DNA of 39,074 nt, taken from the NCBI GenBank assembly GCA_017526985.1, contig JAFXQR010000083.1:1-39074 (forward strand), read 5' to 3'. This document shows positions 29,442 to 30,955 of the stretch, one piece after another (the first letter of the stretch is position 1; each line of letters starts with the position of its first letter). The stretch comes from Lachnospiraceae bacterium (lineage in GTDB: Bacteria > Bacillota > Clostridia > Lachnospirales > Lachnospiraceae). Position numbers and translations under genes: made by a program. A model generated the notes under the pieces. The model saw only the letters and a list, made by a program, of their open reading frames with translations, did not search any database and was not told the DNA's origin.

Positions 29442-29470
29442 TTGACAATCACGGAGTTTTCTTTTATCAT
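29442..29470 (+). promoter_or_regulatory. Strong promoter of the Rpn gene
   Basis: Consensus -35 TTGACA (29442-29447), 17-base spacer, -10 TATCAT (29465-29470). Transcription should begin near 29477, leaving a leader of about 178 bases before the ATG at 29655. Confidence 0.8.
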
Positions 29471-29654: not shown

Positions 29655-30860
29655 ATGACAAAAAAGGAAGAAAACTTATTAACACAGATTCTCGGAGAGC
29701 CAATGTCCGAACCGGAAACTTTGCAGATGATCATGCAGAATGAAACCGCCTGGCAAGCATTCCGCCAGTTATCCTCCGAGCAAAAACAGCCTTTGCTTAA
29801 TTTCTTTATGGGCAAGAGCAGCTTACTGATCACCTATGACAAGTTCTTCAGAGAAATCTTCTCTCCTGAATTCCACCCGGAGCGGTTGGAAAGTTTCCTG
29901 ACTGCGATCATGGGCGAAGAAGTAAAGATCAAAGATACCATTGAACGGGAAGGTCATTCTTTCACCGAAGACAGCAGTCTGGTCATTATGGATCTGCTGG
30001 TGGAGATCGGTGGGAAGCGCATCGTAAATATCGAGATGCAAAAGGTCGGTCTCTATTTTCCGGGAGAACGCAGTGAAGTGTATGCTTCCGATCTCATCAT
30101 GCGGCAATATACCCGCATCAAAAATGAAAAAGGAAAGAAATTCAAATACAGTGACATGCCACAGGTATATGTCATCATCCTGATGGATAAAAGCGCTCGT
30201 GAGTTCAGCGCAGAAAAAGTGTGCGATCACTATATCCACAAAAGGCAGGTAAACTATGACAGCGGCGCATCACTCAGATCACTACAAAATATCACCTACA
30301 TCACCCTTGACACATTTCGGGAAAAGCTGCAAAATGAAGGTATCCAAAGTTTGCAGGATGCCTGGCTGACTTTCTTTTCTTCAGTAAGAGTCGAGGATAT
30401 CCTGAAACTGATCGATATGTTTCCCGAGTTTCGGGAATACTACCGTGATATTGCCAAGTATCGACATAAGCCGGAGGAGGTGATCCATATGTACTCGGAA
30501 GCAATTGCCTTTTTAGACCACAATACGGAACAATACATGATCGAAGATATGGCGAACCAGATCTCAATCCTGAAAAACGAGAAACAACATTTGGAAAATG
30601 AGTGCCAGGATCTTGAATCCAGAAACCAGAATCTGAAATCCAAGAATCAGAATCTCGAGTCCAAGAATCAGAATCTCGAGTCCAGGAATCAGAATCTCGA
30701 GTCCAGGAATCAGAATCTCGAGTCCAGGAATCAGAATCTCGAGTCCAGGAATCAAAATCTCGAGTCCAAGAATCAGGATCTTGAATCACAGAACAAGAGC
30801 CTGCTGGAAGAGGTAGCTCGCTTGAAAAAATTATACGAATCAAATAATGCCCAGCAATAG
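29655..30860 (+). CDS. Rpn family PD-(D/E)XK nuclease (recombination-promoting nuclease/putative transposase) with heptad-repeat tail
   Basis: 401-residue protein, the only plus-strand gene. The nuclease domain (about 56-235) shows YDKFFREIF (61-69), MDLLVEI with Asp113, and VNIEMQ with Glu127 and Gln129, the D...ExQ core of the PDDEXK_2 transposase-like family. A helical region (240-310) includes HKPEEVIHMYSEAIAFLDHNTEQYMIE. Residues about 318-380 are nine tandem heptads of the type QNLESRN, an almost pure coiled coil. The start at 29655 follows GGAAAGGAAGGAG; an upstream in-frame TTG at 29586 has no ribosome site. E. coli Rpn proteins are DNA endonucleases linked to RecA-independent recombination and phage defence, with a short internally translated form acting as antitoxin (established). 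An equivalent internal start is present here at 30489. Confidence 0.93.
   Translation: MTKKEENLLTQILGEPMSEPETLQMIMQNETAWQAFRQLSSEQKQPLLNFFMGKSSLLITYDKFFREIFSPEFHPERLESFLTAIMGEEVKIKDTIEREGHSFTEDSSLVIMDLLVEIGGKRIVNIEMQKVGLYFPGERSEVYASDLIMRQYTRIKNEKGKKFKYSDMPQVYVIILMDKSAREFSAEKVCDHYIHKRQVNYDSGASLRSLQNITYITLDTFREKLQNEGIQSLQDAWLTFFSSVRVEDILKLIDMFPEFREYYRDIAKYRHKPEEVIHMYSEAIAFLDHNTEQYMIEDMANQISILKNEKQHLENECQDLESRNQNLKSKNQNLESKNQNLESRNQNLESRNQNLESRNQNLESRNQNLESKNQDLESQNKSLLEEVARLKKLYESNNAQQ
30489..30860 (+). CDS. Internal in-frame translation product of the Rpn gene (candidate intragenic antitoxin)
   Basis: An ATG in the Rpn frame (Met279 of the full protein) is preceded by AGGAGGTGATCC (30475-30486), a 12-base perfect match to the complement of the 16S rRNA 3' end, with 8 bases between GGAGG and the ATG. 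The product would be 123 residues: a helix MYSEAIAFLDHNTEQYMIED, then the whole heptad-repeat coiled coil, with no nuclease residues. By analogy with RpnS forms it would pair with the full-length protein and restrain it. That SD quality exceeds most real starts in the window. That it is translated is inferred. Confidence 0.6.
   Translation: MYSEAIAFLDHNTEQYMIEDMANQISILKNEKQHLENECQDLESRNQNLKSKNQNLESKNQNLESRNQNLESRNQNLESRNQNLESRNQNLESKNQDLESQNKSLLEEVARLKKLYESNNAQQ
30606..30794. repeat. 21-bp tandem repeats encoding coiled-coil heptads
   Basis: About nine consecutive 21-base units in frame with the Rpn gene. The central six (about 30645-30770) are nearly identical, each reading AATCAGAATCTCGAGTCCA followed by AG or GG. 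The outer units have diverged. The unit length is a multiple of three, so changes in copy number lengthen or shorten the coiled coil without a frameshift. Confidence 0.92.
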
Positions 30861-30923: not shown

Positions 30924-30955
30924 TAAAAAAGCCGTCATTACTGACGACTTTTTAT
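30924..30955. terminator. Bidirectional terminator between convergent genes
   Basis: AAAAAGCCGTCA-TTAC-TGACGACTTTTT: arms 30926-30937 and 30942-30953 with one C/A mismatch, T-run on both strands. It serves the Rpn gene on the plus strand and the symporter pair on the minus strand. Confidence 0.85.

Follow-up and report, generated by a model that had tools for sequence, protein, structure and literature searches.

The window, that is, the whole 39,074-nt stretch of DNA analysed here, carries on its forward strand a gene for a 401-residue nuclease of the PD-(D/E)XK type (29655–30860). The protein, hereafter the L form, belongs to the Pfam family PDDEXK_2 (PF12784), whose profile it matched with 62.3 bits (curated cut-off, 27.4). 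Its residues D113, E127, and Q129, which we take to be the catalytic Asp and Glu-x-Gln of PF12784, were invariant in 61 of 61 aligned representatives. Translation of L most likely starts at ATG 29655 rather than at TTG 29586, because the sequence AAGGAG lies shortly upstream of 29655. For the full-length gene, pattern matching gave a promoter-like site at 29442–29470 (TTGACA-17-TATCAT, 11 of 12 consensus positions); such patterns are no commoner in the window than by chance (4 found, 4.1 expected from shuffling). Downstream, also as a pattern match, a terminator-like hairpin followed by a T run lies at 30933–30946 (1 found, 1.3 expected), and it would serve both the L transcript and that of the nested gene described below.

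The neighbours examined were housekeeping genes, with no recognised defence island around the nuclease gene. PADLOC returned nothing for the locus beyond weak coiled-coil matches and one REase_II match in a neighbour gene, which was rejected as Pfam identifies the product as a MutY-like protein. An antisense open reading frame at 30301–30843 was likewise rejected as a gene, since it reads the tail repeats backwards.

The internal start site

Within the nuclease frame, the sequence AGGAGGTGATCC (30475–30486) forms the Shine-Dalgarno (SD) site of a nested open reading frame (30489–30860, forward strand) that begins with an in-frame ATG (30489–30491), 8 nt past AGGAGG. The initial annotation had placed both elements at exactly these coordinates. 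It had also described the 123-residue product, hereafter the S form, as free of nuclease residues, and the catalytic D113, E127, and Q129 are indeed absent from S. The product consists of a conserved helix, MYSEAIAFLDHNTEQYMIEDM, and a heptad coiled coil, which is encoded by 8.4 copies of a tandem 21-bp (7-residue) repeat (30606–30781).

The 12-mer is presumably the complement of the 16S 3' tail. It occurs once in the window, where matches with up to two mismatches are not rare (14 found, 3.5 expected). On both strands of the 4.09-Mb assembly, the exact 12-mer was found twice, each time at an internal-start site, once in the window gene and once in a paralogue truncated at the end of its contig; the same pattern reversed, as a control, was absent. 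A chance origin of the 12-mer was rejected on these grounds.

Selection on the internal start was examined with a third-base scan, in which each codon was compared with the codons used for the same amino acid elsewhere in the same gene. The alignment comprised the loci returned by the searches and 60 fetched regions spanning or near the internal start. From the 111 rows aligned around this start, 3 very distant rows and 2 duplicate records were removed, and the remaining 106 gave 81 non-redundant representatives (<80% identity), with fewer per column where rows fall short. Extended to all four bases, the scan of these 81 representatives comprised 935 column-by-base tests. The scan was overdispersed (standard deviation ~2), and its z-scores are not probabilities because the sequences share ancestry. 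The codon counts held after clustering to 36 representatives.

The nine highest z-scores were 218T (16.2), 219C (11.8), 276G (11.1), 275G (9.4–9.5), 227T (7.7), 281G (7.4), 274G (7.4), 230A (6.8), and 229T (6.4), where the number denotes the codon and the letter its third base. All nine lie in the nested promoter or start-site region, in the SD, or in the second codon after the start. Two control sets, which are smaller (~30–35 sequences per column) and thus have a lower ceiling, reached lower maxima: 3.95 in 776 tests for TIGR01784-type genes of the same bacteria (38 rows), and 5.94 in 738 tests for PF12784 genes across the phylum (33 rows). An isolated preference for C at the third base was observed at codon 141 (30075–30077; z 6.0), outside both the promoter and the SD.

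At the SD, third-base G was enriched at codons 273, 274, 275, and 276 (z 4.7, 7.4, 9.4–9.5, and 11.1, respectively), with z ≤2.8 for third-base G in each of the 24 codons upstream of codon 273. Glu275 was encoded by GAG in 46 of 48 sequences (42% elsewhere in the same genes) and Val276 by GTG in 48 of 54 (31% elsewhere). In 79 of the 81 genes, predicted anti-SD pairing exceeded the average of synonymous shuffles in strength; taken individually, the difference was significant (p ≤0.05) in 29 genes and not in the other 52. The SD was the strongest anti-SD window of the listed open reading frame in 44/81, some of these frames being fragments. A start codon occupied the internal position in 75 representatives (72 ATG, 2 GTG, 1 TTG), and the remaining 6 had an ATG two codons upstream, so that a start codon was present at one of these two places in all 81. 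The internal start is thus genuine and under selection. Neutral synonymous drift of the SD bases, which the initial annotation had named as the outcome that would speak against it, clearly fails to describe the data, in which third bases are biased toward the SD.

It had further been proposed that the codons for EEVI are constrained by the RNA signal. This held for the core AGGAGG-TG, which is conserved, but not for the full 12-base match, for which the claim was too strong: codon 277 showed no third-base G bias (z 0.15), and the full 12-mer was found solely in relatives of the same genus. SD-like motifs are widespread inside genes, and the peptide E-E/K-V is itself conserved at this site, so that the motif might be read as a translational pause during which the coiled coil folds co-translationally, or as a by-product of conserved glutamates. 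We regard this reading as extremely improbable. Where residue 274 of a PEEV-type row is Lys or Gly, AAG GAG or GGG GAG still yields GGAGG. The SD is followed by a start codon in every representative, and a separate promoter, at which stand-alone units begin, is conserved upstream (see below). The simpler version, in which the SD is a mere by-product of the conserved peptide, was rejected by the third-base G bias at codons 273–276 and by the synonymous shuffles. Across the family, the Ser codon at position 281 (30495–30497), two codons past the internal ATG, favours G or A as its third base (z 7.4 and 5.7), which is perhaps part of the initiation signal.

The nested promoter

Upstream of the SD lies a conserved promoter of the nested gene, TTGACA-17-CAAAAT (30307–30335, forward strand), which was absent from the initial annotation. 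Its -35 box, TTGACA (30307–30312), depends on the codons chosen for Leu218 and Asp219, and a 17-nt spacer separates it from the -10 box, CAAAAT (30330–30335). As a bare pattern in the window gene alone, TTGACA is within chance expectation. Across relatives, Leu218 was encoded by CTT in 74 of 75 cases (22% elsewhere in the same genes), and the third base of codon 218 was T in 77 of 78 (18.8 expected; z 16.2). Asp219 is encoded by GAC, with C at the third base of codon 219 in 71 of 78 (z 11.8). At codon 227, the third base was T in 77 of 77 (z 7.7). With these biased bases, TTGAC is complete and the -10 hexamer has its final T. Within this hexamer, A2 and T6 were each kept in all 77 representatives, and they remained unchanged where residues 226–227 went from His/Gln-Asn to Tyr-Ala, Tyr-Ser, Tyr-Pro, or others.

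The -35 box matched the consensus at six of six positions in 57 of 78 representatives, at five in 19, and at four in 2; for the -10 box, four of six positions matched in 69, five in 8, and three in 1. No alignment gaps occurred between the two boxes, whereas the start codon lay at varying distances from codon 218 (165–207 nt). The nested site was the top-scoring promoter-like site of the gene in 69/78. Its score exceeded the mean of synonymous variants in 77/78, and individually p was ≤0.05 in just 20/78. The conserved promoter would give the nested gene a transcript of its own, and expression of the nested gene is well supported by these sequence data. In two otherwise full-length relatives (L086 and L102), a stop lies between the nested promoter and the SD, and the nested unit is intact.

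At the sequence level, and independently of any experiment, these data indicate that a complete small gene can persist inside another gene in the same frame, with protein-coding positions that also carry a promoter and a ribosome-binding site, each under selection for itself. The same third-base scan could be used to seek nested genes in any family with enough members.

Tail variation and stand-alone tail genes

The heptad repeats were hypervariable across tails. A repeat period of 7 or 14 residues was detected in 48 of 108 tails, a period of 4 in none, and no clear period in 60 at the threshold used. Tails were 29–280 residues long, a range that also covers rows cut by contig ends and two duplicate records. 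Among tails with near-identical starts, the length difference was a multiple of 7 in 15 of 36 unequal pairs (~5 expected) and a multiple of 4 in 13 of 36 (9 expected), the pairs not being independent; L003 and L019, for example, have 129 and 108 residues. L003, a paralogue from the same genome as the window, shares the first helix of the window gene and has a different heptad sequence.

Tails also occur as genes of their own. Sixteen tail copies without the nuclease were found away from contig ends and with no nuclease remains just upstream, and 13 of them keep the -35 box. In the other three, L215, L224, and L014 (the last of them degenerate), the promoter is gone. Not counted here are tail copies at contig ends, which probably reflect assembly breaks, and L103, L104, L109, L113, L117, L121, and L189, which have nuclease remains just upstream and were treated as broken full-length genes. 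The 13 stand-alone copies, all in other genomes, thus contain the promoter and S and no nuclease.

The upstream edge of DNA homology to full-length genes was measurable in 12 of these copies, and in 9 of the 13 it lay 0–25 nt upstream of the -35 box. Counted from TTGA, the homology of these nine begins 3–4 nt (L028), 6 nt (L073, second copy), 4–6 nt (L106), 10–16 nt (L194 and L195), 13–19 nt (L192), 1–20 nt (L198), 21 nt (L193), and 24–25 nt (L124) upstream. It begins 34–74 nt upstream in L123, 28–94 nt in L110, and 52–127 nt in L107. L114 gave no usable DNA alignment, and by the protein profile it begins ~50 codons upstream. Among full-length controls, only 1 of 73 alignments ended in the same 25-nt stretch, 2 ended downstream of it, and 68 ran >100 nt further upstream. 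The second copy in L073 begins ~130 nt downstream of the stop codon of a full-length gene. In all 13 copies, the frame from the -35 box to the S start is open. This counts against a purely untranslated leader, which would not need an open frame, unless the copies are young.

The clustering of these edges at TTGACA-17-xAxAAT could also mean that the element, rather than being a promoter, serves as an operator or target of a DNA-binding protein, the nuclease or another, and at the same time as a recombination boundary. The homology of a nuclease-only fragment (L229) is lost there too, and conservation extends beyond the -10 box to codons 229–230. This interpretation is nevertheless very unlikely, given that the spacing, the A2 and T6 of the -10 box, and the strand fit a sigma-A promoter ahead of a strong SD and start codon, and that transcription is reported to start internally in the rpn genes of E. 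coli (Zhong et al. 2023; PMC10327210). As a separate observation, fragment L229 occurs in genome G295, with homology that stops close to residue 217, immediately before the nested -35 box, and a stand-alone tail (L195) elsewhere in the same genome begins where that homology ends. The nested promoter may be a recombination boundary.

Within the genus, the full protein had matches in 13 of 35 genomes, in a few cases via the coiled coil alone. Within the family, the N-terminal 311 residues matched in 71 of 397 sampled genomes and a promoter-to-helix profile in 65 of 397. In a phylum-wide sample, the same profile matched in 1 of 398 genomes, the window's own, so that the nested layout is restricted to the family in these samples. 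The four best named matches were one Butyrivibrio and three Lachnospiraceae records, the weaker matches being from other taxa, and we infer that the family carrying the relatives is Lachnospiraceae. No relatives were found among viral contigs. The window genome also has pieces of a further copy at the end of contig C27 and the start of contig C153, possibly not from one gene; the nuclease part is 98% identical to the window protein over residues 1–200, and the tail piece has different heptads.

Function of the S product and relation to known Rpn systems

According to Zhong et al. (2023; PMC10327210), the short E. coli protein RpnS is produced from an internal start and blocks the full-length RpnL, and transcription also starts internally in all five rpn genes of this species. 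The four-residue repeats of the E. coli proteins vary and set specificity, and for E. coli rpnE a stand-alone tail gene directly downstream of a full-length gene is described. The same paper reports that a Clostridioides difficile rpn gene also makes S, the internal start having been proven by mutation in E. coli. In a search of titles and the beginnings of abstracts, this paper was the only one found on the small Rpn protein, and none was found on the PF12784 subfamily. In our own inspection of E. coli K-12 rpnA, for which the S protein is proven, the internal start was preceded by AAGGAG at a distance of 6 nt (AAGGAG-6-ATG), and the best promoter-like site lay 116 nt upstream, an arrangement that matches that of the window gene.

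The analogy with E. coli Rpn drawn in the initial annotation is apt, as both have an in-frame internal start before a variable tail. In both, the gene encodes a PD-(D/E)XK nuclease and the internal start yields the C-terminal tail alone, with hypervariable short repeats; the internal transcription start of E. coli may have its counterpart here in the conserved nested promoter, and stand-alone tail genes occur in both, some directly downstream of a full-length gene (L073 here, the layout described for rpnE there). By contrast, the nuclease here belongs to PF12784 and E. coli RpnA to PF04754 (305.9 bits). Neither PF04754 nor TIGR01784 was among the best 25 of 27 Pfam families or the best 25 of 26 NCBIfam families (E ≤1) for the window protein. 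The tail has no sequence match to RpnA-S (PDB 7TH0), and a search of the PDB with the promoter-to-helix profile found no Rpn chain at E ≤1, both comparisons being of sequence only, whereas a search with E. coli RpnA does find 7TH0. The repeats are of 7 residues, as in a coiled coil, rather than of 4 as described for E. coli. The differences in family and tail are compatible with convergence, which the independent version suggested in the initial annotation would imply, or with divergence from a common ancestor. A further difference is that the promoter and SD here are known from codon-level selection, and antitoxin activity is suggested by the analogy.

We propose that the locus comprises two genes that share a single reading frame. 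The outer one would produce L, a 401-residue PD-(D/E)XK nuclease followed by a C-terminal helix and a heptad coiled coil. From the inner gene, a sigma-A-type promoter (30307–30335), a putative ~130-nt untranslated leader, a strong SD, and ATG 30489 would give S, of 123 residues. S is probably in excess of L because of its predicted separate transcript and its strong SD. By pairing with the matching coil of L, S would keep the nuclease inactive, as RpnS does with RpnL in E. coli, until infection or stress frees it. Which S and L fit together would depend on how long the heptad coil is and on its sequence. The system may have a role in phage defence. By analogy with these relatives, we consider it likely that S is an antitoxin, an inhibitor of the L nuclease.

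Alternatively, the nested gene is real and the nuclease depends on S as a structural partner rather than an inhibitor. There is precedent for C-terminal subunits that are translated separately and work together with the full-length protein, such as Cas11d of the type I-D CRISPR complex (cited in PMC10327210). A working complex would also be in keeping with the invariant active site and with the frame that stays open ahead of S in stand-alone copies. A partner of this kind is unlikely, since in genomes G173, G097, G296, G375, G355, and G314 a stand-alone S occurred with no other match among the candidates scored (the G097 and G375 assemblies are 61% and 68% complete), and since the best-studied relatives, as described in that paper, use S as an inhibitor.

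The inhibitor reading extends the known Rpn design, an antitoxin within a toxin gene as described for E. coli, to a nuclease group common in the sampled genomes of the family, presumably Lachnospiraceae; what is new here is the nuclease subfamily and the 7-residue repeats. With the change of the repeat unit from 4 to 7 residues, the tail becomes a canonical coiled coil, which makes the unit easy to model as a specificity code. The stand-alone tails would be candidates for separate antitoxin genes. More speculatively, the nested unit (promoter, SD, and coiled-coil frame) might be an antitoxin cassette complete in itself, bounded at its own -35 box and spreading independently of the toxin. Stand-alone copies would then neutralise Rpn-type nucleases of neighbours or invaders, and the number and sequence of heptads would be a matching code, rewritable in both partners at once by gain or loss of 21-bp repeats. 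We hold this extension to be possible and rather doubtful.

Two other groups of genes were compared with the window gene. The C. difficile rpn gene resembles it as a Gram-positive rpn gene with an internal start and differs in its repeats, those reported for the species being of 4 residues rather than 7, a comparison that follows the paper's description. The genes of the same bacteria that match TIGR01784 ("Rpn family nuclease/putative transposase") belong to the same broad nuclease group. They differ in that the window protein has no TIGR01784 match at E up to ~0.6 and in that 38 aligned rows of these genes showed no conserved nested promoter or SD. The TIGR01784 Rpn-type profile matches the window genome 10 times, and the window gene may or may not be among these matches. 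One of its TIGR01784 genes, L004, also ends in 7-residue repeats.
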